Shown here piece after piece: positions 1,188-36,797 of a stretch of DNA of 64,000 bases. The number at the start of each line of letters is the position of its first letter. The stretch's first letter is position 1. The translations under genes were made by a program, and so were the position numbers. Source of the DNA: Natrinema gari JCM 14663 (GTDB lineage Archaea; Halobacteriota; Halobacteria; Halobacteriales; Natrialbaceae); NCBI RefSeq assembly GCF_000337175.1, contig NZ_AOIJ01000051.1:148777-212776 (forward strand). The letters are read 5' to 3'. The notes below the pieces were generated by a model. It had not been told where the DNA came from, did not search any database, and saw only the letters and a list, made by a program, of their open reading frames with translations.

Positions 1188-4100
1188 ATGATGGACGGTT
1201 CCAGCCGACCGACCGTGTTCGTGGTGCTGATGACGCTGTTGCTGGTGACGTCACCAGTCGTCGCGGCAACGGGAAGCCTCACGGATGCGAGTGCCGAGGC
1301 GGACGGAGACGCGCTTACGGTTTCGGACGTACAGACACAGTCAGGAGCGGACGTTCGGATTGCATCCGAGCTCGAGCAGTCAGCGGCCGCGGCGGACACT
1401 GTCGAGGTGTTCGTCCGCATGGATGCCGCGGTCTCGGAGTTCGCAACCGCAACTGACGCTGCGAGCGCGACCGCGCTCAAGCGGGAAGCAGCCGCGACAC
1501 AGCGGCCTCTCGAGACGTACGCCGACGGCGTCGATGGCGTCGAACTCGTCACCGAGTTCTGGCTCACGAACGCGGCCCTCGTCGAGATCGACACGACGCG
1601 GGTCGATCTCGAGGACCTCGCGCGGGTCGACGGAGTGATCGAACTCCACCCGAACTACGAGGTCGAGGTCGGCGAGCCGAACGTGACCGACGGGTCACCC
1701 GCCGACGGCGAGGTCACGTACGGCCTCGAGCAGGTGAACGCGCCCGCGGTGTGGGAGGAGTTCAACGCGACCGGTGAGGGCGTCTCGGTCGCCGTCGTCG
1801 ACACCGGACTCACGGCGTCCCACGAGCAGTTCGCGGACCGGAAGGACGTCGCGGACAACTGGGCGGAGTTCGACTTCGACGGCAGCGAAATCGAGAGCAA
1901 GCCCTACGATCGGAACGGGCACGGTACCCACGTCGCCGGGACGATCCTGGGCGGTGACGCCGACGGCCAGCGGATCGGCGTCGCACCCGACGCGGAGCTG
2001 ATCCCGATCGGCGTCTTCCCGGGGATGCCCGACCGGGAGTCGACAACGCTTGCAGCTATCGTCGCCGGACTGCAGGAAGCGGTCGAGCAGGACGCCGACG
2101 TGGCGAACTTCAGCCTCGGCGGCAGCGGGTTCGCAGGGATCTACGTCGACGCGATCCGAAACGCCCAGAAGGCGGGGACGCTCGTCGTCAGTTCCGCCGG
2201 CAACGACGGGCCGGCGTCCGAAGGAACGCCGGCGAACGTCTACGACGCGCTGGCGATCGGTGCGACGGACGCGAACGAGCAGATCGCCGACTTCTCGACC
2301 GGTGGGACGGTGACCACCGACGAGGACTGGGGCCCGATCGCGCCGGACGACTGGCCCGAGTCGTACGTGACGCCGGACGTCTCCGCGCCCGGCGTGGACG
2401 TCCGGAGTTCCTACACCGGCGGCGACGACGCCTACGCGGAGTTGTCCGGCACCAGTATGGCCGCGCCACACACCAGCGGGGTGGCCGCACTCCTGGCCGC
2501 GCAGGGTGCCGACGATCCGGCTGAGATAAAAGCACTTCTCGAGGAGACGGCGACAAAGCCGGCACCCGACAGGATCAGTAAGCAGGTCGCCGCCGACGCG
2601 AAGGCGGTGAGCGACGCGCAGTACGAGAGTCTGTACACCGACACCGAACGCGACGTCCGGTACGGGTACGGCATCATCGACGCGTACGCGGCGTCCGCAG
2701 CGCTGGCGGACGATAGTCGGATCGAGGGAACCGTTGTCGACGGCGACGGGACCCCGATCACGGATCGCGCGGAGGGCGTGCCCGACGGGAGCGGCCCGTC
2801 AGTCACGGTCGACGACGCGGGTCGGACACAGTACGCCGCCGACGGAACCTTCGCGTTCGACGTGACCGAGGGCCGATACAACGTGACCGCTGCCGGTGCG
2901 TTCGGCTACGAGAATGCGACGGCCACGATCGATGCGAGCGGGTCGGTCGAACGGGATATCGTCCTCGACGAGCAGTTCGCTCTCGAGGTCGTGCAGGGAC
3001 AACCCAGCGAACTCGAAGCGGGACGGACGGCCGACGTTGCGGTCGACGTCGCCCACGCGGAGGCGCTCACCGTCGAACTGAGTAACGAATCGACGGTCGA
3101 CGAAGCGAACGTGACCGTCGATCTCGTCGGCATCGAATCCGACGTGCTGGGCGACACCGTCACGTTCGACGAACCGCTGACCGCGACGCCTGCGACGCTC
3201 GAGGTGACCGTCGACGGCGCGGACACCGCGGGCGAAACGGTCGTACTCGAGCACACGTTCGTCGGGAGCGACGGGACGACCGAAACGGTCACGACTGGGC
3301 CGACGACCGTCGTCACCGAGGTCACGGAGGCTGACCCCCTCCGAATCGTCGAGACGGACATCGTCGATGAGGCGCTGGCCAGTGAGCAGATCGCACCGGG
3401 TGAAGTCGTCGTCAAGAACACGGACGATGACGTCACCCAGAACGGCACCGTGGTCTGGAAGACGCCGATCGGGGACTTCGCGTCCGAGGAGTTCGAACTC
3501 GAGCCGGGCGAAACCACGACGTACAATCGCACCCTCTCGTACGGTGATGGCACGCCGACGCCGTGGTCGTACATCGCCGACACCGGCGAGACCGTCGATC
3601 ACCGGTTCGTGCTCCTCGACGGCACGCTGGCACCGATCCAGAAGGAGGAGTTCACCACCGAAATCGTCGGCGGCGAACTCACGGGGACGGTAACCGACGC
3701 GGACACGGGCAGCCCACTGCCCGGCATCGAGGTCACGGCGACGAACGGCGACGGACGAGTCAGTACCGTCACCGATAGCGACGGGGAGTACGCCATCATC
3801 GTCGACGCGCCCGGCGAGTGGACGGTCACTGCGAACGCGACCAGCTACGGACCGGCGAGCACGACGGCCCGGTTCAACGAGGATCTCGACCCGGTCGAAC
3901 GGAACCTCACGGTCGGCAGCGATCCGACGTTCGAACTCTCGATGGAGGGTGGGAAGGTCTACTCCGTCGGGCTGCCGGGCCCGGTGGAAGGTGGCACTGT
4001 CGGTGACGTCGTTCCGAACGGGACCCACGCCATGGTCTTGATGTACAACGAAACGACGCAGGGCTGGGAGCAGCCGAGCCGGGACGACGAAGTCGAGCCG

Positions 4101-5126
4101 CTCGACGCGCTCCTCGTGAGTCCGGTCGAAGACACGACGATAACCGTCGAAATGGCCGGGACGCCCGGTACCGGTGACGGAGTGACCGAACCGCGCGACA
4201 TCAAGCGGGGCTGGAACTTCGTCGCGCCGCCCGTCTACGACGACCCCGAGGACGCGTTCAGTCACGATTCGGACGCCATCCGGAGCGTGACCCGGGTTCA
4301 GCGGGCCCCTGACTCGAAGATGGTTCCCGAGAGCGAGTTCGACGGCATCGAACTCTTCGACGAGACTACGAACGCAGTCAGTCCCTTCACCGGCTACCTC
4401 GTGTTCGCGACTGAGGACGGCCAACTCGAGCCAACCGTCGCCGAGGGAACGACGCTCGACGCGGCCTACGAGGACCTCGAGATCGACGCCGAGCGACGAA
4501 CGGGAACCGTCCAACGGCGCGCCGACGGTGCGCCCGTCGCAGGGGCAACCGTTCATGTGGAGAACACCACCGTCTCGGCGACGACCGGTGCCGACGGGAC
4601 CTTCACGCTCCCGGCCCTCCCGACCGCTGTCGAACAGGAGGTGACCGTCACGGCCGAGGACTTCGAACCGAAGACCGTTCGGCTGGACGAGACTGACACC
4701 ATCGAACTCGAGTCGGACGCCTTCTTCGAGATCACGGCTGTCACCGTGAACGAGACGGACCTCGACGTCGGCGACGAGTATACGGTCACGTACGAACTCG
4801 AGAACCGGGGCACCGAACGGGCGTCACAGATCGTCGACGTCGAGTTCGGTCCGGGTCTCGAAGACGGGAAGCGAGCACGGCTGACCGACGATATCGTCGC
4901 GATCAATAGTACGGTCGTCGAACTCGAAGCCGGCGAGACGACGACGCTCGAGATCACGGCCGAAGTCCTCGAGGAACAGGCTACCGGACCCAGTCGGATC
5001 GGCGTCTTCACCGCGGACGACCGCGTGATCCGAACCGTCACGGTCACCGACGAGACTGCCGGTGGGAGCGAGCTCGTGGCACCAGCGAGCGACCGATCCA
5101 TCTCGCCGACGCCGAGCGCAGCATAG
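1188..5126 (+). CDS. Secreted subtilisin-like serine protease (S8) with long C-terminal beta-domain array
   Basis: Extracellular serine protease, about 1312 aa, much longer than ordinary halolysins (about 400-550 aa). A hydrophobic Sec-type signal ends near VVAATG. A propeptide-like region follows to about residue 150. The S8 catalytic domain has D205 (VAVVDTG), H245 (NGHGTHVAG) and S423 (SGTSMAAPH), with an AGNDG oxyanion motif between. After about residue 510 come carboxypeptidase-regulatory-like (CnaB/TonB-type) beta-sandwiches (about 510-600, 825-910, 1100-1180), a GWNFVAPP-containing domain also reminiscent of haloarchaeal surface proteins, and a CARDB-like C-terminal domain. No PGF-CTERM anchor is visible, so it is probably released or held non-covalently. 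Two adjacent ATGs (1188, 1191) are possible starts. A TTG at 1173 is less likely. Confidence 0.9.
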   Translation: MMDGSSRPTVFVVLMTLLLVTSPVVAATGSLTDASAEADGDALTVSDVQTQSGADVRIASELEQSAAAADTVEVFVRMDAAVSEFATATDAASATALKREAAATQRPLETYADGVDGVELVTEFWLTNAALVEIDTTRVDLEDLARVDGVIELHPNYEVEVGEPNVTDGSPADGEVTYGLEQVNAPAVWEEFNATGEGVSVAVVDTGLTASHEQFADRKDVADNWAEFDFDGSEIESKPYDRNGHGTHVAGTILGGDADGQRIGVAPDAELIPIGVFPGMPDRESTTLAAIVAGLQEAVEQDADVANFSLGGSGFAGIYVDAIRNAQKAGTLVVSSAGNDGPASEGTPANVYDALAIGATDANEQIADFSTGGTVTTDEDWGPIAPDDWPESYVTPDVSAPGVDVRSSYTGGDDAYAELSGTSMAAPHTSGVAALLAAQGADDPAEIKALLEETATKPAPDRISKQVAADAKAVSDAQYESLYTDTERDVRYGYGIIDAYAASAALADDSRIEGTVVDGDGTPITDRAEGVPDGSGPSVTVDDAGRTQYAADGTFAFDVTEGRYNVTAAGAFGYENATATIDASGSVERDIVLDEQFALEVVQGQPSELEAGRTADVAVDVAHAEALTVELSNESTVDEANVTVDLVGIESDVLGDTVTFDEPLTATPATLEVTVDGADTAGETVVLEHTFVGSDGTTETVTTGPTTVVTEVTEADPLRIVETDIVDEALASEQIAPGEVVVKNTDDDVTQNGTVVWKTPIGDFASEEFELEPGETTTYNRTLSYGDGTPTPWSYIADTGETVDHRFVLLDGTLAPIQKEEFTTEIVGGELTGTVTDADTGSPLPGIEVTATNGDGRVSTVTDSDGEYAIIVDAPGEWTVTANATSYGPASTTARFNEDLDPVERNLTVGSDPTFELSMEGGKVYSVGLPGPVEGGTVGDVVPNGTHAMVLMYNETTQGWEQPSRDDEVEPLDALLVSPVEDTTITVEMAGTPGTGDGVTEPRDIKRGWNFVAPPVYDDPEDAFSHDSDAIRSVTRVQRAPDSKMVPESEFDGIELFDETTNAVSPFTGYLVFATEDGQLEPTVAEGTTLDAAYEDLEIDAERRTGTVQRRADGAPVAGATVHVENTTVSATTGADGTFTLPALPTAVEQEVTVTAEDFEPKTVRLDETDTIELESDAFFEITAVTVNETDLDVGDEYTVTYELENRGTERASQIVDVEFGPGLEDGKRARLTDDIVAINSTVVELEAGETTTLEITAEVLEEQATGPSRIGVFTADDRVIRTVTVTDETAGGSELVAPASDRSISPTPSAA

Positions 5127-10467: not shown

Positions 10468-13400
10468 TCACTCCGCCGCCGCCGGCAGTTCGTCCTCGAA
10501 CAACCGTGCCAACACCCGCTGCTGACCGATCCGCAAGTGTCGGTTGACCGTCGGTTGCGTCACGCCGAGCATCGCAGCGATCTCCTCGCCGGTGCTCTCT
10601 CGAGGCCAGTCGAAGAAGCCGGCGAAGTAGGCCGTCCGCAACACCTCGAGTTGCCGGTCCGTGAGGGCGTCGAACAGGGAGGCCACGAGTTCGCTTCCCG
10701 TTCCCGTCGGGCGCTCGACGTGGCTGCGAGCCTGCAGTTCGACGGTCGCGTACTGGTCCCGAAGCGTCTCGACGAACTCGCGAACGTCGGTTCCCGTCGG
10801 GACATCGACGGTCACCTCGATGCCGTCGTCGGTCGCGTGCATCGAGCGCGGACTGGCACCGTGACGGACCAGCCGCGAGGCGACGACATCGCCGGTGATC
10901 GTCGCCTCGAAGCGACAGTTACCGTCGGCCTCAGCGAGCAGCCGATAGTCAGTGACTGAAACGAGATCGTCGAGAATCGACCGCACGTCGTCGGCCGGAA
11001 CGCCGCTCGTTTCGAAGAACAACAGCGTCTCGTCGGTCGAGTGTGAGCCGAGCCCCTCGTACTCGACGTGGGTCCCCGTGGTCGTCGCGATGCGAGAGAG
11101 CAGATCGTCCGCGCCCCCGATCCGGAGCGTGAGTTCGAGCAGCCGCTCGGCGTGGAGCGCCTCCCGCGTTTTCACCGCCGTAATCGCGTTCGCGATCCCC
11201 TCTCCGAGTTCCGTCAGTACCGTCCGCTCGAGGTCCCCGAACGCGTCGGGCTCGGCGGCGTACACCGTGAGAACGCCGTAGGTGTACTCCGCGTAGGACA
11301 GCGGGACGCTGATGACCGACTGGAACCCACAATCCAGAGCGTGTCGCCGCCAGCCCTCACCCTGGAGCCCCTCGACGGCGTTCGAGACGAGCGACGTCGT
11401 TTCCGTTCGGGCGGTCCGGACGGCGGGCTCCATCGACGCGTCGTACTCGAGGGACACGTCGTCCAAATACGTCTGTCGCTGTCCGGCCCAGGCGCGGGGT
11501 TCGAGTCGCGTGCTGCTGGGGTCGAGGGTCCCGATCCACGCGAACGCGATGTTGTCGGCCTCGAGCAGGCGGTCGGGAACGGTTCGCTCGATTTCGGCCC
11601 TGCTGTCGGCCCCGATGAGCAACTGATCGATCCGCCTGATGAGTTCCGTGCTCTCGATCTGGCGGTTGAGCCGCCGGTTTCGTTCCTCGAGTTCCGCTTC
11701 CCGCTCGCGGAGGCTGGCCTCGCTCTCGAGGCGGTCGAACGCGGCCTCGGTCGTGGCGACGAGCGTCTCGATCAGTCGCCGGGCGTCGGCGTCGATCGGG
11801 GTCTCGCCCGACGCGACCGCGAACACGCCGTGATCGCCGATCGGGACGACGGCTCCGCTCTCGACGGTCGAGCCGAAGACTCGTGACTGATCGAACGACA
11901 TCGGATCGTCGACCACGGTTCCAGTTCCCGTCACGTAGGCGTTCCAAAGGACGGAGTCGCCGTCGCCGACGGCGACCGACGGCGGGCCGTCACAGAGCGT
12001 CTCGAACCCGTCCGTGTAGACGACTGGCTCGAGCTGGTTCACGTCGGAATCAAGCCGATAGACGGCCACGCCAGCGGCGTCGAGGATCTCCGCCGCGGTG
12101 TCGACGACCAGCTCCGCGATCTCCGCGTCGGTCTCGGTCCCGAGCAGATCGCGGGCGGCGCTGTGGAGCGACTCGAGTGCCAGTTCGCGTTCCTTGTGCG
12201 CAGTGATGTCCTGAATCGTCCCGCGGACGCCGACGATGTCGTCGGACTGGCGGCCGCCGCCGGACCGGCGTCCGTCCGTGCGGACGGGTTCGCCGATCGA
12301 CCGAACCCACCGTTCGTTCCCCTCGACTGTCTGCATGCGGTGTTCGATCTCGTAGCTCTCGCCGTCCTCGAGCGCCGCGTCGACGGTATCGAGGACGGCG
12401 GGTCGATCCTCCGGATGCGGGAACGAGGACGCCAGGTCTGAATCGAGTGTCACGTCGGCCGGGAGTTCGTACAGGCGACGCAGCCCATCGGTGAAGGTCA
12501 CCTCCCGCGAGTCCCCGCTGACATCGAGTTCCCAGCCGCCGATGCCGGCGAGGCGTTCGGCCTGTTTGAGCAGTTCCGTCGTTCGCTCGAGGTCACGTTC
12601 GCGCTCCTTGCGCTCGGTGATATCACGGACGACGCCTGCAGTCCCGGCGAACTCGCCGTCGGGCATCGGCAACAGCGCCATGTGGTTTTCGATATCGATC
12701 TGTTCGTCATCGGCCGTCTCGAGGACGACCTCGACCGTTCGAGAGGGTTCGTCGAACCGCAGCAGTTCCCGAATCATGTCCCGTGCCCGCTCGATGTCGT
12801 CCGATGGAATGATCGCCGCGGCGTGTTCGCCGATCAGGTCCTCGGGGTCGTAGCCGAGTATCGGCTTGGCGGCGTCGTTCAGGAAGGTGAACCGCCCCTC
12901 CGCGTCGAGCGTGTACACCAGTTCATCCAGCGCCTGAATGATCGTCTCGAAGCGCTCGAGGTCACGTTCGCGCTCCTTGCGCTCGGTAATGTCACGGACG
13001 ACGCCTGCAGTCCCGGCGAACTCGCCGTCGGGCATCGGCAACAGCGCCATGTGGTTCTCCGTATCGATCTCGTCGCCGTCGGCGGTCTCGAGTTTCATCT
13101 CGAACGTCCGAGCGGGGTCGCCGGCGCGCAGCAACTCACGGATCCGGTCGCGAGCCGTCTCGAGGTCGTCCTCGGCCATCACGGTCGAGACGTGCTCGCC
13201 GATCAGGTCCTCAGGATCGTAGCCGGTGATCGACGTGAGAGCGTCGTTCAGGAAGGTAAACCGCCCTTCCGCGTCGAGCGTGTACACCAGTTCGTCCAGC
13301 GCCTGAATGATCGTCTCGGACCGCTCGAGTTCGCGTTCACGCTCCTTGCGCTCGGTGATGTCCTGAAACGAGCCCCGGAGCTTGACGATTTCGCCGTCGT

Positions 13401-14937
13401 CGGACCCCGACCGACAGTCGGCGGGGTGTGGGGTCTCGTCGTCGTCTCGGATGGGTTCACCGATCGTCCGAACCCACCGCTGCTCCCCGTCGTCCGTGAC
13501 CAGACGGACTTCGAGATCGTACGGCTCGCCGTCCTCGATCGCACGCTCGACCGCCCCCTCGATCAACGGCCGGTCCGCCGGGTGATAGAACTCGAAGGCC
13601 CGATCCAGACCGATCTCCGCGTCGGGCGGGAGGCCGTGAATCCGGTTGACCTCGTCGGTCCACCGGGGGTCAGGCGGCTCCTCGGTAACATCGAGTTCCC
13701 AGGCCCCGACGTTGGCCAGCCGCTGGGACTGTTCGAGCATGTGCATGGTCCGCTCGAGGCGCGTTTCGCGCTCGCGGAGTCGCCGCTCCGTTGCCTTGCG
13801 GTCAGTGATGTCCCGGCCGATTCCGACTTCGACCGCGTTGCCGTCGGGATCCTCGAGCACCGAGGCGACGAACTCGTACGGTATCGATTCGCCGGATTTC
13901 GTTTGCAACGCCGCTTCGACGTGTGTATCGCCCGTCTCGAAGGCGTCCTCGATCGAGTCGCGGATCACGGCCCGATTCGCCTCGTCGAAGAAGTCCAGCG
14001 CGTGTCTCTCGCTGATCTCGGCGTCCGAGTAGCCCGAAACCTCGACCAGTGTTTCGTTCCAGCGCCGGAAGTTCCCGTCCTCGTCGAGGATGTAGAACAC
14101 GTCGTCTAACGCGTCGATGATGTCGTTCATGAACGCCTCGTGGCGCTCGAGGCGCTGCTCTTTGGCCGTTCGCTCGCTGATGTCGCGACCGATGCCGGCG
14201 ATGACTTCGGTGCCGTCCGGATCGGCGAGCGGTGAGGCGACGAACTCGTACGGTATCGATTCGCCGGATTTCGTTCGTAACGCCACCTCGACGCGCGCAT
14301 CGCCCGTCTCAAGGACGTCCTCGATCGCGGTTGAGACCAGGTCGTGAGCCGCTTCGTCGAAGAAGTCGAGCGCGTGCATCTCGCCGATTTCGGCGTCTGA
14401 GTAGCCCGAGACCTCGCCCAGCGCCTCGTTCCAGCGCTGTACCCGGCCGTCCTCGTCGAGCAGGTAGACGACATCGGTGACGGCATCGAGCATATCGTCG
14501 GTGAACGCACGGGTCTGCTCGAGGCGGCGGTCGCGGTTGCGGGCCACGGTCGCGAGGTCGTCGACGGCTTCCGAGAGCCGTCCGACCTCGTCGTCCCGGT
14601 CGACGGTAAACTCGATCGGCTCATCGCTGGTCGCGTCCTCAGCATCGGTTTCGTCGCCGGCCGACGCGGCTGCATCGCCGTCGAGACGCGAGACGAATCG
14701 ACGGAGATCGGCGGTCAGTCGTTCGATATCGGTCGATCGATCGGTACCGCTGCGCGCGGCGAGTCCGACGACGACCAGCCCGGGTTCCGGCCCCAATCCC
14801 TGTCCGAAGGTCGTGATGTCGGAGACCGCCATTCCGAGACCGACAGCGCCCAGCACGACGACCGCCCCGAGTAGCGGTGCGATCGGCTTCCGTGTGGCAC
14901 CGTCGAGCGTTCCAGTGTGTACCGCGGCGACGACCAT
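10468..14937 (-). CDS. Multi-PAS/GAF bacterio-opsin-activator-type transcriptional regulator
   Basis: 1489-aa regulator with sensory N-terminus and DNA-binding C-terminus; no histidine kinase domain. Order: one hydrophobic helix (about 19-38); an acidic linker and coiled region; PAS1 (about 145-260), PAS2 (270-385), PAS_3-type PAS3 (400-530), PAS4 (540-655), PAS5 (662-780), PAS_3-type PAS6 (785-915); two GAF-like domains (about 920-1065 and 1100-1250); a bacterioopsin-activator domain (about 1255-1410); and HTH_10 (about 1420-1480, DRQLEVLRTAYFAGFFDWPR and GVTQPTVNRHLR). Six PAS domains is an unusually large input array, partly built by tandem duplication. Targets and ligands unknown. Candidate partners are the HalOD1 and pseudo-receiver genes across the divergent promoter. 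Confidence 0.9.
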   Translation of the reverse strand: MVVAAVHTGTLDGATRKPIAPLLGAVVVLGAVGLGMAVSDITTFGQGLGPEPGLVVVGLAARSGTDRSTDIERLTADLRRFVSRLDGDAAASAGDETDAEDATSDEPIEFTVDRDDEVGRLSEAVDDLATVARNRDRRLEQTRAFTDDMLDAVTDVVYLLDEDGRVQRWNEALGEVSGYSDAEIGEMHALDFFDEAAHDLVSTAIEDVLETGDARVEVALRTKSGESIPYEFVASPLADPDGTEVIAGIGRDISERTAKEQRLERHEAFMNDIIDALDDVFYILDEDGNFRRWNETLVEVSGYSDAEISERHALDFFDEANRAVIRDSIEDAFETGDTHVEAALQTKSGESIPYEFVASVLEDPDGNAVEVGIGRDITDRKATERRLRERETRLERTMHMLEQSQRLANVGAWELDVTEEPPDPRWTDEVNRIHGLPPDAEIGLDRAFEFYHPADRPLIEGAVERAIEDGEPYDLEVRLVTDDGEQRWVRTIGEPIRDDDETPHPADCRSGSDDGEIVKLRGSFQDITERKERERELERSETIIQALDELVYTLDAEGRFTFLNDALTSITGYDPEDLIGEHVSTVMAEDDLETARDRIRELLRAGDPARTFEMKLETADGDEIDTENHMALLPMPDGEFAGTAGVVRDITERKERERDLERFETIIQALDELVYTLDAEGRFTFLNDAAKPILGYDPEDLIGEHAAAIIPSDDIERARDMIRELLRFDEPSRTVEVVLETADDEQIDIENHMALLPMPDGEFAGTAGVVRDITERKERERDLERTTELLKQAERLAGIGGWELDVSGDSREVTFTDGLRRLYELPADVTLDSDLASSFPHPEDRPAVLDTVDAALEDGESYEIEHRMQTVEGNERWVRSIGEPVRTDGRRSGGGRQSDDIVGVRGTIQDITAHKERELALESLHSAARDLLGTETDAEIAELVVDTAAEILDAAGVAVYRLDSDVNQLEPVVYTDGFETLCDGPPSVAVGDGDSVLWNAYVTGTGTVVDDPMSFDQSRVFGSTVESGAVVPIGDHGVFAVASGETPIDADARRLIETLVATTEAAFDRLESEASLREREAELEERNRRLNRQIESTELIRRIDQLLIGADSRAEIERTVPDRLLEADNIAFAWIGTLDPSSTRLEPRAWAGQRQTYLDDVSLEYDASMEPAVRTARTETTSLVSNAVEGLQGEGWRRHALDCGFQSVISVPLSYAEYTYGVLTVYAAEPDAFGDLERTVLTELGEGIANAITAVKTREALHAERLLELTLRIGGADDLLSRIATTTGTHVEYEGLGSHSTDETLLFFETSGVPADDVRSILDDLVSVTDYRLLAEADGNCRFEATITGDVVASRLVRHGASPRSMHATDDGIEVTVDVPTGTDVREFVETLRDQYATVELQARSHVERPTGTGSELVASLFDALTDRQLEVLRTAYFAGFFDWPRESTGEEIAAMLGVTQPTVNRHLRIGQQRVLARLFEDELPAAAE
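12587..13324 (-). repeat. Intragenic tandem duplication encoding PAS4 and PAS5 (369-bp period)
   Basis: Two adjacent units share long near-identical stretches at a constant offset of 369 bp (123 codons). One stretch around 12592-12685 matches 12961-13054 and another around 12892-12945 matches 13261-13314, with few changes. The middle of the unit has diverged. The encoded domains both contain IIQALDELVYTLDAEGRFTF. A second, older pair (PAS1/PAS2) shows matching stretches offset by 372 bp near 13862 and 14234. Confidence 0.8.
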
Positions 14938-17264: not shown

Positions 17265-18554
17265 CTACGTCCCGTGATCCCAGGCGCTCATGTACTCGCG
17301 TTGGGTTTCGGTCAGCGAATCGAAGTCGACGCCCTCGGCCTCGAGTTTGATCTCGGCGATCTCCTTGTCGAGTTCGTCGGGGACATCGTAGACGCCGGCA
17401 TCGTACTCGTCGCCGTTCTCGAGCATCTCGCGCACACAGACGGCCTGAATACCGAACGACTGGTCCATGACCTCGACCGGGTGGCCCAGCGAGACGGGCG
17501 CGGCGAGGTTGACCAGACGACCCTCGGCGATCACGTTCAGCGTGCGACCGTCGTCCAGTTCGTAGGCCTCGACGCCGTCGCGGGCCTCGTAGCGGTCGAC
17601 CGCAAGATCGTCTAACGCCTCGAGGTCGATCTCGATGTCGAAGTGGCCGGCGTTGGCCAGCAGGACGCCGTCTCCCATCTTCTCGAAGTGCTCCTCGACG
17701 ATGACGTCTCGGTTGCCCGTCGTCGTCAGGAAGACGTCGCCGACCGCGGCGGCCTCGGCCATCGGCATGACCTCGTAGCCCTCCATGTGGGCCTCGAGGG
17801 CGCGACGGGGCTCGACCTCGGTGACGATGACGTTGGCGTTCTGTCCGGCGGCTTTCTTCGCGACACCTTTGCCACAGTAGCCGTAGCCCGAGACGACGAC
17901 GTTCTTGCCGGCCCACGAGAGGTTCGTGGTCATGGCGATCGACGCCAGCGAGGACTCGCCGGTGCCGTGGACGTTATCGAACAGCCGCTTCATCGGCGTG
18001 TCGTTGACCGCGAAGACGGGGTACTCGAGCGCGCCGTCGTCGTCCATCGCGCGCAGGCGGTGGACGCCCGTAGTGGTCTCCTCCGCGCCGCCGATGATGC
18101 CGTCGATCAGTTCGGGGTAGTCCTCGTGGATCGCGGCGACGAGATCCATCCCGTCGTCGACGGTGATCGTCGGCTCGTGGGCGATAACGGCCTCGATCGC
18201 AGCGTAGTACTCGTCGTCGTCGACGCCGCGTTTGGCGTAGCTGGTGATGTTCTCGTGGGTGTCGAGCGCCGCCGACACGTCGTCGTGGGTCGAGAGCGGG
18301 TTACAGCCGGTGACGGCGACCTCCGCACCGCCCTCCGCGAGCGTCTCGACGAGCATCGCCGTCTTGGCCTCGACGTGCATCGCCATGCCGATCCGCTCGC
18401 CCGCGAAGGGCTGATTCGCGACGAACTCCTCGCGAACGCGCTCGAGGATCGGCATGTGTTGGGCGGCCCAGTCCATCTTCCGGCGTCCCTCCTCGCGAGC
18501 GGACTCGAGGTCGTCCAGTTGCTCGCTGATCGGTGGATACTCGGTCTCGGTCAT
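17265..18554 (-). CDS. ahcY: Adenosylhomocysteinase
   Basis: NAD-dependent S-adenosyl-L-homocysteine hydrolase producing adenosine and homocysteine, which removes the inhibitory product of methyltransferases. The 429-aa protein has the substrate-binding GCNPLSTHDDVSAAL region, the NAD-binding Rossmann segment VVSGYGYCGKGVAKKA and the C-terminal IKLEAEGVDFDSLTETQREY typical of archaeal AhcY. Cytoplasmic tetramer in characterised relatives. A gene for a deaminase that may act on SAH or related nucleosides lies about 1.2 kb downstream on the plus-strand coordinate (19721-21019), on the same strand. Confidence 0.96.
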   Translation of the reverse strand: MTETEYPPISEQLDDLESAREEGRRKMDWAAQHMPILERVREEFVANQPFAGERIGMAMHVEAKTAMLVETLAEGGAEVAVTGCNPLSTHDDVSAALDTHENITSYAKRGVDDDEYYAAIEAVIAHEPTITVDDGMDLVAAIHEDYPELIDGIIGGAEETTTGVHRLRAMDDDGALEYPVFAVNDTPMKRLFDNVHGTGESSLASIAMTTNLSWAGKNVVVSGYGYCGKGVAKKAAGQNANVIVTEVEPRRALEAHMEGYEVMPMAEAAAVGDVFLTTTGNRDVIVEEHFEKMGDGVLLANAGHFDIEIDLEALDDLAVDRYEARDGVEAYELDDGRTLNVIAEGRLVNLAAPVSLGHPVEVMDQSFGIQAVCVREMLENGDEYDAGVYDVPDELDKEIAEIKLEAEGVDFDSLTETQREYMSAWDHGT

Positions 18555-18803
18555 GGGTTGACTGAGTGCGAGCGGGGCAAAAACGCTACCGAAGCGCTCG
18601 CGTCACGGCGAGAGCGAAACTGGGCAAGAAGCAGAATCGAATCCGCGCCGGTCGCTGGCGCGGGCGTCGGCCGGCTGCCGATCGCCGCGCGCGACCGTGT
18701 CCCGACGCCGTCGAAGACCGTGCCTCTGACAACCCGGTGTCGTCGAACGGCGTCTCTCGGACGCGGATCGAATCCGGTCGGACCGGATCAGGTGCGGTCG
18801 CCG

Positions 18804-19565
18804 TTACTTCGGTCCGGCGTGAGACGGCGGACCGCCGCCGCCGTTTCCGTTAGTGTCGTCGCTGTCGTCGGTATCGTCCGCATCGTCGTCGCTGTCGTCG
18901 GCATCATCCGCGTCCTCGTCGCTGTCGTCAGCATCGTCCGCGTCCTCATCGCCGGACTGTCCAGCATGCTCGGGCGGACCCCGTTCGTCATCGCTCGACG
19001 GGCCGGCGTGTTCGGGCGGTCCTCGTTCGTCATCGTCGTCCTCGGCCTCGTCGTCGCCGTCAGCATCGCTTGGCGGACCGGCATGGGTCGGCGGACCAGC
19101 GTGGTCGGGCGCGTTACCCGGGTTGTTCGCAACGACGAAGCTCGCGACGGAGAGACCGGTCGGGCCGTCGGACTCGTTGTCGGCGTTCTCGGCGAACTCC
19201 GAAACGAGCGAGCCGAAGTTCGATACCTCGGTCTCGTTGTCCTCAGTCTCGTTGTCCTCAAGGTCGTCTTCGGTCTCGTTGTCCTCAAGGTCGTCTTCGG
19301 TCTCGTTGTCCTCAAGGTCGTCTTCGGTCTCGTTGTCCTCAAGATCGTCTTCGGTCTCGTTGTCCTCAAGGTCGTCCTCGGTCTCGTTGTCGTCGAGAGT
19401 ATCGTCGGTTTCGTTCGCGTCGGCCGTGACGAGAAGGTGCTCGCCATCGCCGTCCATCTCGGGGACGCCATCGCCCGTCTGCGCTGCCGCCGTTCCCAGC
19501 GGTGCGATCACGGACAGGGCCATCATGGCGATCAATGCCATCGTGAGTAGTCGGTGGTGCTTCAT
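18804..19565 (-). CDS. Secreted acidic repeat protein with clustered N-glycosylation sequons
   Basis: 253-aa protein with a Sec signal (hydrophobic LLTMALIAMMALSVIAPL, cleavage after AAAQ). The mature region starts with N-E-T sequons arranged in five perfect nine-residue DDLEDNETE repeats plus flanking partial copies, giving at least eight N-x-T sites within about 70 residues. A short conserved stretch (FGSLVSEFAENADNESDGPTG) and ASFVVANNPG follow. The C-terminal third is Asp/Ser/Gly/Pro-rich with repeated PPxHAGP motifs and DDADDSDD runs. No transmembrane anchor. Function unknown; a heavily glycosylated surface or matrix protein is an inference. The start at MKHHRL follows a TATA-like GTTTATTC about 27 bp upstream. 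Confidence 0.75.
   Translation of the reverse strand: MKHHRLLTMALIAMMALSVIAPLGTAAAQTGDGVPEMDGDGEHLLVTADANETDDTLDDNETEDDLEDNETEDDLEDNETEDDLEDNETEDDLEDNETEDDLEDNETEDNETEVSNFGSLVSEFAENADNESDGPTGLSVASFVVANNPGNAPDHAGPPTHAGPPSDADGDDEAEDDDDERGPPEHAGPSSDDERGPPEHAGQSGDEDADDADDSDEDADDADDSDDDADDTDDSDDTNGNGGGGPPSHAGPK
19246..19380 (-). repeat. 27-bp tandem repeat, five units
   Basis: Five consecutive 27-bp units begin at 19246, 19273, 19300, 19327 and 19354, with a partial unit from 19381. They differ by only one or two substitutions. On the minus strand each encodes DDLEDNETE. Near-perfect identity at synonymous positions indicates recent expansion by slippage or unequal recombination. Confidence 0.92.
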
Positions 19566-19650
19566 CCGAGCGGAACATTCCCGGATTCCTGAATAAACCC
19601 CCACGGACGTTCTCGTCGTTTCCGCACCGAGATAACGCTTCGAGAATTGT

Positions 19651-19683
19651 TTTGAGTGTTTATAAACTGCTTTGAGCGTTTAT
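19651..19683. promoter_or_regulatory. 13-bp direct repeat at 20-bp spacing
   Basis: TTTGAGTGTTTAT (19651-19663) recurs as TTTGAGCGTTTAT (19671-19683), start-to-start 20 bp, about two helical turns. The first copy includes the palindrome GTTTATAAAC (19658-19667). The element is 86-118 bp upstream of the acidic repeat protein gene and just past the end of the amidohydrolase gene. An activator or repressor site is inferred. Confidence 0.4.
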
Positions 19684-19720
19684 CTCAGCGTCGTTTCGCT
19701 CGTCGAATCGGCCGGGTCGA

Positions 19721-21019
19721 CTACGCGTCGGCCCGCTCTGCCACCGCTTCCGCCGCCTCGAGCGCCCGCTCTCGGACCGCCGCCGCCTCGAGCGTCAGGA
19801 CCTCGCGGTCACGCATGAGCACGCGGCCGTCGCAAACGGTGTGGCGAACGTCGGCCGCCGCGGCCGCATAGGCGAGGTGACTCACGAGGTCGTGTGGCGG
19901 CGTCAGGTGGGGTTGCTCGAGGTCGATCACCGCCAGATCGGCCGGCGCACCCTCCTCGAGCCGCCCGGACTCGAAGCCGACGGCATCGGCGCTGCCCCGC
20001 GTCATCATCTCGACAACCGCCTCCGCGGGCACTGCGCTGGCGTCGTCGGCGGCGAGTTTGCCCAGCATGGCCGCGTCGCGAGCCTCGTCGAGCATGGAGA
20101 GATCGTTGTTCGAGGCCGCGCCGTCGGTGCCGAGTCCGACGGTGACACCCGCCTCGCGCAGCCGCTCGACCGGCGCCATCCCGCTGGCGAGTTTCATGTT
20201 CGAGGCGGGACAGTGAATCACGCCGGTGCCGACCTCGGCGAGGAGGTCGATCTCGGTCTCGTCGACGTGCACGCCGTGTGCGACGAAGTCCTCTGGCTCG
20301 AGGAGGCCGCGGTCGGCGGCGTACTCGAGCGGCCGGACGCCGTGCTCGTCGACGATCGGCGCGACCTCGTCGGCGGTCTCGTTGGCGTGGTAGTGGATCG
20401 GAACGCCCGCCTCCCGCGCTTTGGGAACGAATTCGTCCAGGTACTCGCTGCCGACGGTCGTCAGCGAGTGGGGCATAAACGCCGTCGAGATCCGCCCGTC
20501 GGCCGCGCCGTCGTACTCGCGGGCGATCTCGAGACCCGTAGCCGCGTCCTCGCGAGCGGTCTCGCCGTCCTTGCCGATGGTGACGATACCGTGCCCGAGC
20601 CGGGCCCGGAGCCCGGCGGTTTCGACCGCGGCGGCGACTTCGGGGACCTGGAAGTACATGTCGGCGAACGCAGTGACGCCCGATCTGATCAGTTCGAGCA
20701 GGCCCAGCTCGGCACCGGCGCGGATATCCGCGGCCGTCAGTTCCCCCTCGGCGGGCCAGATGTCCTCACGGAGCCACGTCTCGAGGGGCTTGTCGTCGGC
20801 GTACCCGCGCAGGAGCGTCATGGCGACGTGACAGTGGCCATTGACGAACCCCGGTGTGACGAGCGAGTCCGCGGCGTCGAGCGTGTCGTCGGCCTCGCCT
20901 GCGAGATCGGGGCCGATCTCGCGGATGTCGCCGCTGTCCTGATCGATCAGTACGTCCGCGGCCGTCACCGTCAGGTCGGGCCGGAGCACCCGCCCGTCGG
21001 CGATCGCAAGCGTCGTCAT
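19721..21019 (-). CDS. dadD: Amidohydrolase, 5'-deoxyadenosine/SAH/MTA deaminase type
   Basis: 432-aa metal-dependent amidohydrolase of the cytosine/adenosine deaminase branch. Metal ligands are visible in NGHCHVAMTLLRG, in the later IHYHANET, in VAHGVHVDETE and in GLGTDGAASNNDLSMLDEAR. Related archaeal enzymes (DadD/MtaD) deaminate 5'-deoxyadenosine, methylthioadenosine or S-adenosylhomocysteine to the inosine forms. The exact substrate cannot be read from sequence, so the symbol is tentative. Same strand as ahcY, with one unrelated gene between. It suggests salvage of SAM-derived nucleosides in this region. Confidence 0.85.
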   Translation of the reverse strand: MTTLAIADGRVLRPDLTVTAADVLIDQDSGDIREIGPDLAGEADDTLDAADSLVTPGFVNGHCHVAMTLLRGYADDKPLETWLREDIWPAEGELTAADIRAGAELGLLELIRSGVTAFADMYFQVPEVAAAVETAGLRARLGHGIVTIGKDGETAREDAATGLEIAREYDGAADGRISTAFMPHSLTTVGSEYLDEFVPKAREAGVPIHYHANETADEVAPIVDEHGVRPLEYAADRGLLEPEDFVAHGVHVDETEIDLLAEVGTGVIHCPASNMKLASGMAPVERLREAGVTVGLGTDGAASNNDLSMLDEARDAAMLGKLAADDASAVPAEAVVEMMTRGSADAVGFESGRLEEGAPADLAVIDLEQPHLTPPHDLVSHLAYAAAAADVRHTVCDGRVLMRDREVLTLEAAAVRERALEAAEAVAERADA

Positions 21020-21906: not shown

Positions 21907-22734
21907 ATGAACAGACGGGCAGTCCAACTGGTACTCGTGGCGGCCCTCGTCGCCGTCGCCGGCTGTGCCGGTGGGATGGGTGGGGAGCCACAGAACAACC
22001 CGACCGACGAGTCGTCCACGATCGACGCCGACGGGAGCACGGGAACGGCCGCGTTCTACGTCAGCGACGAACCGAACGCGATCGACGAGTTCGAACACCT
22101 CAACGTAACGATCACGAAGGTCGGCTTCAAGAAGACCGGCGACGGAAGCGACGGCGACTCGAACGGGACTGACGGTGACGCCGGGAACGAGTCGCCGAAC
22201 GAAACGGCCGACGGGGACGAGACGGACGAGAAGAGCGAAGCGGACGGGAAAACCGATGACGGCGCGGCCGACGAACGCTGGATCGAATACGATGTCGACA
22301 ACCGGACGGTCGATCTCACGGAACTGCAAGGCGCGAACGCGTCGATGATCGATGAGTTCGAGCTGCCGGCGGGCGACTACGAGACGGTCTTCATCTACGT
22401 CAGCGACACCGAGGGCGTCTTGACGGACGGGAGCACGACGCGGGTGAAACTGCCGAGCAACAAACTCCAGTTGCACACGGATTTCACCGTCGGCACCGAC
22501 GAGCGGGTCGACTTCGTCTACGACATCGCACCCCACAAGGCCGGCAAGAGCGGCAAGTACATCCTCAAACCGGTGCTCAGCGAGAGTGGAACGGGTGACG
22601 ACGTCGAGATTCGCGACATCGACGCGGACGAGGACGAGCCCCGCGGCAACGGCGGCAACGGCGGCAACGGCGACGACGGTGGAAACGGCGGGGCCGAAAC
22701 CGGTGCGTCCGACGCGAACGCCGCGGACGACTGA
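21907..22734 (+). CDS. DUF4382 lipoprotein
   Basis: 275-aa exported lipoprotein: hydrophobic signal with lipobox VAGC at about residues 17-20. The DUF4382 domain begins at TAAFYVSDEPNAIDEFEHLNVTITKVGF and resumes after an acidic insertion (about residues 80-120, rich in Asp, Glu, Gly) at WIEYDVDNRTVDLTELQGANA. The C-terminus is a low-complexity Gly/Asn/Asp tract (22644-22695). It is probably attached to the outer membrane face. Role unknown. Confidence 0.85.
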   Translation: MNRRAVQLVLVAALVAVAGCAGGMGGEPQNNPTDESSTIDADGSTGTAAFYVSDEPNAIDEFEHLNVTITKVGFKKTGDGSDGDSNGTDGDAGNESPNETADGDETDEKSEADGKTDDGAADERWIEYDVDNRTVDLTELQGANASMIDEFELPAGDYETVFIYVSDTEGVLTDGSTTRVKLPSNKLQLHTDFTVGTDERVDFVYDIAPHKAGKSGKYILKPVLSESGTGDDVEIRDIDADEDEPRGNGGNGGNGDDGGNGGAETGASDANAADD

Positions 22735-35663: not shown

Positions 35664-36797
35664 TTACTCGGCGGCCGAATCGGATCCCGAATCGTCGCCA
35701 CTGGAGTCGTCGTCGCTCGACTCGCGGACGGCGTCCCTGACGGTGACCGTCGTCCGAACCGGTTGGTCGTCGACTTCGATCGGCGACGCCGAATCGACGT
35801 CACCCGGATCGCCCGCGTAGAGGGCCGCCGTCAGTTCGTCACTCTCGTTGATCGCGGCGTCTTCCGGGAGGTCGACGGTGACGTTCTCGTGGTCGCCGGG
35901 CTCGAGTCGAGCGCTCGTTCCGATCGCCGAGCCGTTCCGTTCGAGGGCGACGAATCCACGCTCGGGAATCGCGGCCTCGACGGTCACGCGCTCCGCGCTC
36001 GCGTCGGTCACCGAGACGCTCGGGTCCGTGTGGAACGCGAGTTCGATCCCCGCGACCGCACCGTCGCCGTCGGTGTAGACGCCGATCGTCCGGTTCCCGG
36101 GAGGTGCACCGCTCGTCTCCGTCTCGAAGGTCACGCGGCGTGATTCGCCGCCCTCGAGTTCGAGCACCCGTTGTTCGAAGACGGCACCGTCGATGCGGAC
36201 CGTGACGGATTGTTGGGTCTGGAACGCGGTGGGATTGCGGAGCGTCGCGTTCACCCGGATCGTCTCGTTGGTCGTCGCGGCCGCGGGCGCGTCGATCGAT
36301 TCGACGACGAACGAGTCGCCGAGCGCGTCCGTCCCGTTCGTCGTCACTGTCGCGGTGTCGCTGACCGGGAACCCGGCCTCGAGATAGGGATGGTCCTCCT
36401 CGCCGTCGGTCTCGTAGTAGGCGAACGGGTCGTCGCCGGTGTCCTGATGGACCGTCGCCGTCACCTCCCCGACCAGTTCGTGGGTCGCGTCGTCCTCGCG
36501 CTCGATGGTCACGTTCTCGTGGGTGCCGGCCGCGAGGTGGTCGGAGACGGCGAGCGGTCCCTCACCGCCGTCGGTGAGCACGACGTAGCCGCCGTCGGAG
36601 AGGGAGACCTCGCGAACCGTGACGGCGGTGCCGTCGCCCTGCTGGTCCGCGAACGTGATCGAGGCGTCGGAGTCCTCTTCGACGCCGAAAATAGCCGGGG
36701 CCTGTCCGACAACGATACCGGCGGCGAGCACGATCGCGATCGCGATCAGGATCGCGACGATGCGCTTGAGCGTGCCAAACGTCAGTCTCGAACTCAT
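35664..36797 (-). CDS. Secreted or membrane-anchored DUF7282 protein
   Basis: 377-aa protein with one N-terminal transmembrane helix (about 10-32) acting as signal anchor. Two copies of a DUF7282-like beta domain follow (about 45-145, ITFADQQGDGTAVTVREVSL; and about 250-345, VTVEAAIPERGFVALERNGS), with a CARDB-like domain between them. The C-terminus is a Ser/Asp-rich tail (SSDDDSSGDDSGSD). Many N-x-S/T sequons suggest surface glycosylation. Extracellular; role unknown. Confidence 0.75.
   Translation of the reverse strand: MSSRLTFGTLKRIVAILIAIAIVLAAGIVVGQAPAIFGVEEDSDASITFADQQGDGTAVTVREVSLSDGGYVVLTDGGEGPLAVSDHLAAGTHENVTIEREDDATHELVGEVTATVHQDTGDDPFAYYETDGEEDHPYLEAGFPVSDTATVTTNGTDALGDSFVVESIDAPAAATTNETIRVNATLRNPTAFQTQQSVTVRIDGAVFEQRVLELEGGESRRVTFETETSGAPPGNRTIGVYTDGDGAVAGIELAFHTDPSVSVTDASAERVTVEAAIPERGFVALERNGSAIGTSARLEPGDHENVTVDLPEDAAINESDELTAALYAGDPGDVDSASPIEVDDQPVRTTVTVRDAVRESSDDDSSGDDSGSDSAAE

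Follow-up and report, generated by a model that had tools for sequence, protein, structure and literature searches.

A tandem array of N-E-T sequons as a candidate N-glycan-bearing linker in a conserved exported protein of haloarchaea

Repeats that multiply glycan sites are known in principle. In mucin-type glycoproteins the number of repeats sets the number of glycan acceptors, and the O-glycans are carried on repeats rich in Ser, Thr and Pro. In haloarchaea, halomucin of Haloquadratum walsbyi is a giant protein of about 9,000 residues, which has been proposed to surround the cell with a hydrated layer. For H. volcanii, 39 N-glycoproteins were reported in the main dataset of PMC8241124, in which AglB acts on exported proteins and deletion of aglB left no N-glycopeptide. 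Most of these N-glycoproteins are uncharacterised (two-thirds of them) and conserved within Halobacteria, according to the authors of that paper. Among them, HVO_2160 is described as the largest protein of H. volcanii; 19 of its sites are confirmed, and processing by ArtA is predicted (PMC8241124).

We analysed a window of 64,000 nucleotides from Natrinema gari JCM 14663, which encodes a 253-aa exported acidic protein (P0001, hereafter the window protein). Like HVO_2160 and other AglB N-glycoproteins of H. volcanii described in PMC8241124, most of which have no known function, it has a Sec signal for export, many N-X-S/T sites and conservation within Halobacteria; it differs from HVO_2160 in its size, in having no such C-terminal signal and in that its sites lie in a short tandem array. 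With mucins it shares that repeats set the number of predicted sites, although its repeats are Asp/Glu-rich and contain N-X-T. Compared by description, it resembles halomucin as an exported haloarchaeal protein and differs in being small with one short array. A literature search, at the level of the papers listed, found no earlier report of the protein family described here, of sequon-bearing tandem repeats in archaea, of the apparent recurrent replacement of a domain by a sequon array, or of the promoter, and papers containing one of the core or tail motif strings looked unrelated by title. We propose, with a probability of about 0.6, that the window protein is an exported acidic protein with an array of AglB acceptors, which would form a selected, N-glycan-bearing, acidic disordered segment.

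Gene layout and the sequon array

The gene was found by translation at 18804-19565 (stop codon included) on the minus strand, to which the coordinates below also refer unless stated otherwise, and it was the sole match of its kind in a search of its own genome. The product starts with a Sec-type signal peptide without lipobox at about residues 1-29 (MKHHRLLTMALIAMMALSVIAPLGTAAAQ; 19479-19565), with the cleavage site placed by eye and a hydrophobic stretch of mean 2.59 over 12 residues. Residues 30-53 (19407-19478) are the mature start, ending in GEHLLVTADANET, and in pairwise alignments they aligned with the first beta-domain strands of two relatives, L010 and L011. Read in the sense strand, a lone NET (19407-19415) is followed by a divergent first 27-bp unit, DDTLDDNET (19380-19406), which the unit comparison showed to be common to all three sister genomes, and then by five near-identical 27-bp units, EDDLEDNET (19245-19379), at 19353-19379, 19326-19352, 19299-19325, 19272-19298 and 19245-19271. 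A partial unit, EDNET (19230-19244), holds the eighth sequon. Tandem Repeats Finder reported the array at 19239-19391 with period 27, 5.7 copies, 96% matches and a score of 278; the interval 19246-19380 named in the preliminary description spans 135 bp, or 5 x 27 bp. The five units showed three base differences from their consensus, all synonymous.

The array is followed by a conserved 43-aa core, FGSLVSEFA..GLSVASFVVANNPGNAPDHAGPP (19089-19217), delimited by the core HMM match and the family alignment A1 and containing a ninth sequon, NES (residues 130-132; 19170-19178). The first GPPxHAG-type motif, GPPTHAGPP (19071-19097), overlaps the core end, and the motif count placed further GPPxHAG motifs at 18999-19022, 18957-18980 and 18810-18833 in the acidic tail (18810-19088). 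Within the tail, Tandem Repeats Finder and pattern reading revealed a second variable array of 30 bp period, DADDADDSDE / DADDADDSD / DADDTDDSDD (18855-18944). The mature protein has 91 Asp+Glu vs 3 Lys+Arg in 225 residues (40% Asp+Glu).

Eight N-X-T sequons lie in residues 51-112 (62 residues), whereas the shuffled linker, that is the segment from signal to core, had 1.1 sequons on average. A pattern of two neighbouring D-N-E-T-E had 6 overlapping matches in the 4.02-Mb genome, all in this gene, and the reversed-pattern control had 0. These two results together indicated that the array did not arise by chance. The preliminary description had spoken of a secreted, polyanionic protein with one N-E-T per unit, at least eight sequons in about 70 residues and a DD-rich tail, and all of these observations were confirmed, the export by sequence and the tail as an array of variable number with ~10-aa DADDADDSDD-like units. 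Its interpretation as a whole was right in direction and is supported in part, with the glycosylated matrix or surface component as a conjecture that is taken up in the last section.

Scans of the window protein against Pfam (at E<=1) and NCBIfam gave no match, and an Rfam scan of 18500-19800 found none. The AlphaFold2 model, built with 3 sequences, had a mean pLDDT of 52.3, a pTM of 0.12 and no confident fold; such a low-confidence model fits disorder and fits a shallow alignment equally. Two antisense plus-strand frames over the array, of 635 aa and 247 aa, were considered as genes and dismissed, since it is the minus-strand frame that carries the conservation across relatives; they are taken as by-products of GC-rich codons.

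A conserved family with sequon-rich linkers

With the window protein as query, matches were found in 44 of 61 genomes. A profile of alignment A1, which consists of 21 diverse cores with the window sequence as one of the rows, matched 276 of 392 genomes of the host order (258 of 345 among good genomes). Among the matches listed, each genome had a single one, except for genome G109 with two. The match in the window's own genome (2.8e-24, at 19089-19217) arises partly by construction, since the window sequence is in A1, and the search with the window protein alone gives independent support for family membership. When 294 sampled genomes of the phylum were searched, the 40 genomes matched were all from the host order, so that the family looks specific to that haloarchaeal order. 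It is an undescribed family, present in neither Pfam nor NCBIfam.

From loci fetched among the 276 matching genomes, 83 distinct family proteins were gathered. A start and a hydrophobic stretch before the core were found in 80 of them, with start codons and signal cleavage sites chosen by script. L020, L023 and L033, in which no start was found and the frames were broken, cut or had unread bases, were dropped, and the counts on the remaining 80 are of loci that the core pattern reached, so that others (such as L098, L100, L104, L105, L108, L111, L120, L121 and L123-L125) are omitted. The gene is flanked by an mtaD-like gene and ahcY, all on one strand, in 60 of the 80. The window shows this setting, with ahcY (adenosylhomocysteinase) downstream at 17265-18554 and an Amidohydro_1 family gene upstream at 19721-21019, both on the minus strand and named by Pfam and NCBIfam scans; the latter is called mtaD here (MTA/SAH-deaminase-like), its exact substrate being putative because all NCBIfam equivalogs shown were under their cut-offs. 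The setting was found in 0 of 9 members from a genus that we take, partly from sequence, to be Haloferax-like; without this genus, 60 of 71 members had both neighbours and 69 of 71 had one or both.

The core consensus was FGxxVSxFV..GxxVAxFVxxNNPGNAPxHAGPP, with 11 of 43 positions invariant across the 21 rows of A1, and by eye the core consists of two alike halves, G-x-x-V-[SA]-x-F-[VA]. Motifs of the form GPPx[HDNQ]A[GN] occurred in 75 of the 80 members, with a mean of 2.9 per protein. Two distant members, L092 and L099, had by eye an extra beta domain that separates NPGNAPxHAGPP at the core end from the tail, and in L029, L086 and L090 a short hydrophobic C-terminal end (such as SILAALPFF) replaces the GPPxHAGP end.

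The frequency of these motifs, together with a core that is far more conserved than the linker, would fit an alternative in which core and GPPxHAG tail are the functional part, for example by binding a metal or polymer through His and acidic residues, while a glycosylated linker only protects and varies freely. We consider this alternative possible but rather unlikely: the core has no solved or named relative in Pfam, NCBIfam or PDB that would indicate a binding activity (the core profile, run against PDB sequences, gave one match, at chance level with E 0.5), and the density of sequons in the linker itself seems to be under selection, on the evidence that follows.

Sequons were counted as N-X-S/T with X not Pro. 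In the 80 linkers, 849 of 957 Asn were in sequons, compared with 208 expected by shuffling each linker, and the excess was individually significant at p<0.05 in 78 of the 80. The tails of the same proteins, which are as acidic and repetitive as the linkers, had 108 of 439 Asn in sequons vs 43 expected, and 20 of 80 were significant. When only 8-residue contexts unique within each protein were counted, the numbers were 768 of 872 in linkers vs 104 of 425 in tails, and with contexts unique over all proteins they were 524 of 607 vs 93 of 316. Conservation was compared across related linkers, grouped into 27 disjoint pairs, whose alignments are uncertain within repeats. Of the aligned positions, 243 of 266 retained the sequon Asn and 255 of 273 the sequon Ser/Thr (with S and T counted as one), vs 26 of 38 for other Asn, 681 of 861 for other Asp/Glu, 509 of 578 for other Ser/Thr and 1259 of 1475 for the rest. 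The non-sequon Ser/Thr were thus not much less kept than those in sequons. These results indicate that the sequon density of the linkers is under selection.

They also bear on a simpler explanation, that the array is merely an acidic disordered spacer for high salt, in which N-E-T arose from codon proximity (AAC and ACC are one or two mutations from GAC and GAG) and was copied by slippage. The Asp+Glu content of the mature protein, the similar but sequon-free repeats that expand the tail, and codons that are GC-rich and alike would all be expected from such a spacer. Yet the tail serves as a built-in control, and the contrast between linker and tail survived the removal of repeated contexts, which counts against repeat copying alone; furthermore, sequon positions were kept better than other acidic positions, and arrays built from different units converge on the sequon. 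We regard the acidic-spacer explanation as improbable and favour selection for glycan acceptors.

Among 42 acidic open frames of the window, the gene had the top sequon density, 3.56 per 100 residues. The 41 others had 60 sequons in 325 Asn where 39.6 were expected, and frames that by eye looked exported accounted for most of the excess. Two such exported-looking frames were at 1188-5123 on the plus strand (16 sequons vs 5.1 expected) and at 35667-36797 on the minus strand (8 sequons, of 9 Asn, vs 1.5 expected). A DUF4382 lipoprotein-like gene at 21907-22734 on the plus strand, whose frame (21907-22731) also looked exported, had 6 sequons vs 2.3 expected; the DUF4382 protein HVO_1030 of H. volcanii is listed as N-glycosylated in Table 1 of PMC8241124.

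Apparent linker replacement and array turnover

Many relatives have at least one sequon-rich beta domain in the linker, and Pfam named some of these as DUF6795, macroglobulin MG4 or carboxypeptidase-regulatory-like. At the linker position of L109, L092 and L022, Pfam found domains of the PF13620 / PF20598 type, which is the likeness of the family to carboxypeptidase-regulatory-like and DUF6795 proteins; among other beta-domain linkers, L007 had no match and L009 a weak one below cut-off. The window protein differs in that it has no Pfam match and only the first strands seem left: a complete carboxypeptidase-regulatory-like beta domain was not found in its linker (Pfam, E<=1), and in the alignment of the window clade the first strands seemed to be retained (GEHLLVTADANE vs GDDLVVTIDANE in L010) and were followed by the array. 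These alignments indicate that the array is a lineage-specific linker of a conserved family, at the position of the beta domain of relatives.

A tree of ahcY and mtaD from the genus and outgroups, in which domain presence was assigned by eye and several nodes were poorly supported, placed members with an array only in four places within the genus (L001-L003; L004-L005; L008/L013; L006), interspersed among domain-bearing members. From the four placements and the leftover strands, the domain appears to have been lost and an array gained several times with sequon richness kept. Across relatives the arrays had units of 6, 7, 9, 10, 12, 14, 15 and 20 residues, all of which keep the sequon. If a beta domain was indeed replaced by de novo arrays several times, selection would act on the density of glycan acceptors and not on the fold.

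The preliminary description had also expected copy-number change, and this was borne out between species. The window genome has 5 internal 27-bp units, and its sisters, N. pallidum DSM 3751 (L002/L032) and N. altunense AJ2 (L003/L031), have 4 and 6, with one genome per species; these three are draft assemblies in which repeats may be miscounted, so that exact unit counts need long reads. The linkers contain 8 sequons in the window genome and 7 and 9 in the sisters, and tail units of ~10 aa, counted by pattern, numbered about 3 in the window protein and 5 and 8 in the sisters.

All five window units have CTT-GAG, vs CTC-GAC or CTC-GAT in 10 of 10 sister units, and the divergent first unit has CTC-GAC in the window and both sisters. 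Most simply, one variant unit would have spread through the array in the window lineage. The mean differences per 27 bp were 1.10 within vs 2.68 between genomes, a contrast reached by 6 of 10,000 label shuffles. The two sisters differed by 1.0 from each other vs 1.0 and 1.07 within themselves; as they are no more different between than within, the evidence for homogenisation is confined to the window lineage. In another pair, L007 and L015, the flanks are nearly identical and the units differ: L007 has six DNA-identical 27-mers, DDELDGNET, which indicate a very recent expansion, and L015 has a 45-bp unit, DDVLDGNETDDGNET. These comparisons indicate that units are gained, lost and homogenised, which amounts to turnover at the species level.

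Such turnover raises the question of whether repeat number is a rapidly changing dial for surface glycan density within populations, like a contingency locus. The two in-frame arrays in one gene, both differing in number between sisters, and the very recent expansion in L007 would suit this idea. However, all steps are in frame and give no on/off state, and the comparison is between species, with draft assemblies that can miscount repeats. We consider such a dial very unlikely. Under the preferred reading of selected glycan acceptors, in-frame duplication would gain, lose and homogenise units, and each 27-bp step would add or remove six acidic residues and one potential glycan. The family is conserved and single-copy, and the number of its sequons follows from the DNA repeats and is comparable among close species, which makes the importance and selection of N-glycan number on an exported protein directly testable.

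Predicted glycosylation and the promoter

The genome encodes an AglB-type oligosaccharyltransferase (PF02516, 3.1e-21, with WWDYG). An export signal, sequons and AglB in the same genome are the sequence features of an AglB-type N-glycoprotein. From the AglB-type gene and the AglB results in H. volcanii, we infer that glycans are probably added to the array in the course of export. With sequons so closely spaced, some may stay unused. We further infer site occupancy, the charge or bulk of the glycans, and an envelope location as a hydrated spacer or matrix component.

No lipobox was found, as there is no Cys past residue 28 in any of the 80 members, and the window protein has no C-terminal anchor helix (its C-terminus is GGGGPPSHAGPK), so any attachment to the cell would have to be indirect. 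An ArtA/PGF-type C-terminal motif was likewise absent from the window protein by Pfam, NCBIfam and its C-terminus. In the proposed mechanism, the N-terminal linker array would present many N-X-T acceptors to AglB at the outer membrane face, and would form a short, negatively charged, glycan-studded spacer before the conserved core and the GPPxHAG-rich acidic tail. Glycosylated during export, it would become a hydrated spacer, in which each step of 27 bp alters both the length and the number of glycans.

Upstream of the gene, the promoter alignment showed a TATA-like TTTAT (19593-19597), which begins 32 nt upstream of the ATG, in a conserved GGGTTTAT. Of the 80 genes, 76 had a TTTA[TC] box at a distance of 17-38 nt before the chosen ATG, mostly 32 or 33 nt, and its context across the family was GAAC-N2-CCG-N2-GGGGTTTAT. 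By box count and pattern searches, phased RAAC boxes lie at -15, -24, -55, -64 and -84 from the TATA box (19609-19681). In 71 promoters, the nine Haloferax-like members being left out, RAAC occurred 5.37 times per 95 nt vs 0.94 in shuffles, with fixed positions at -84 in 50, at -64 in 51, at -55 in 33, at -24 in 43 and at -15 in 65, and the prominent spacings were 9, 11, 20, 29, 31 and 40. The boxes were absent in a few distant members (L092, L099).

When the window's own genome was searched, two patterns had a single occurrence each, at this promoter: GAAC/TATA, with two mismatches at most, and the exact RAAC-N5-RAAC-N11-TTTA. The doubled ATAAACRCTCAAARCARTT element had one further match, with three mismatches, and its reversed control had one match. 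The three-box pattern without the TATA box had seven matches including this promoter, vs one for the control, so the three-box part alone is not specific. The RAAC boxes are conserved across families, in most of the loci L001-L103, and, together with the TATA box, unique in the window genome. Their phasing suggests a candidate protein that would bind along a single face of the DNA helix for several turns; we know of no regulator that binds such phased RAAC boxes.

Taken more broadly, the family may be an unrecognised common 'glyco-spacer' of the haloarchaeal envelope, near-universal and single-copy. Its core and promoter would be conserved across families and its linker repeatedly rebuilt from sequon-rich beta domains or de novo N-E-T arrays, with the predicted glycan load kept high and with expression under the control of a RAAC operator array that is helically phased and specific to the gene. 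We offer this wider picture tentatively and think it unlikely.

Elsewhere in the window, Tandem Repeats Finder also reported two tandem arrays with units of about 370 bp at 12584-14508, in a 1489-aa frame. They probably encode sensor domains repeated within a large signalling protein.
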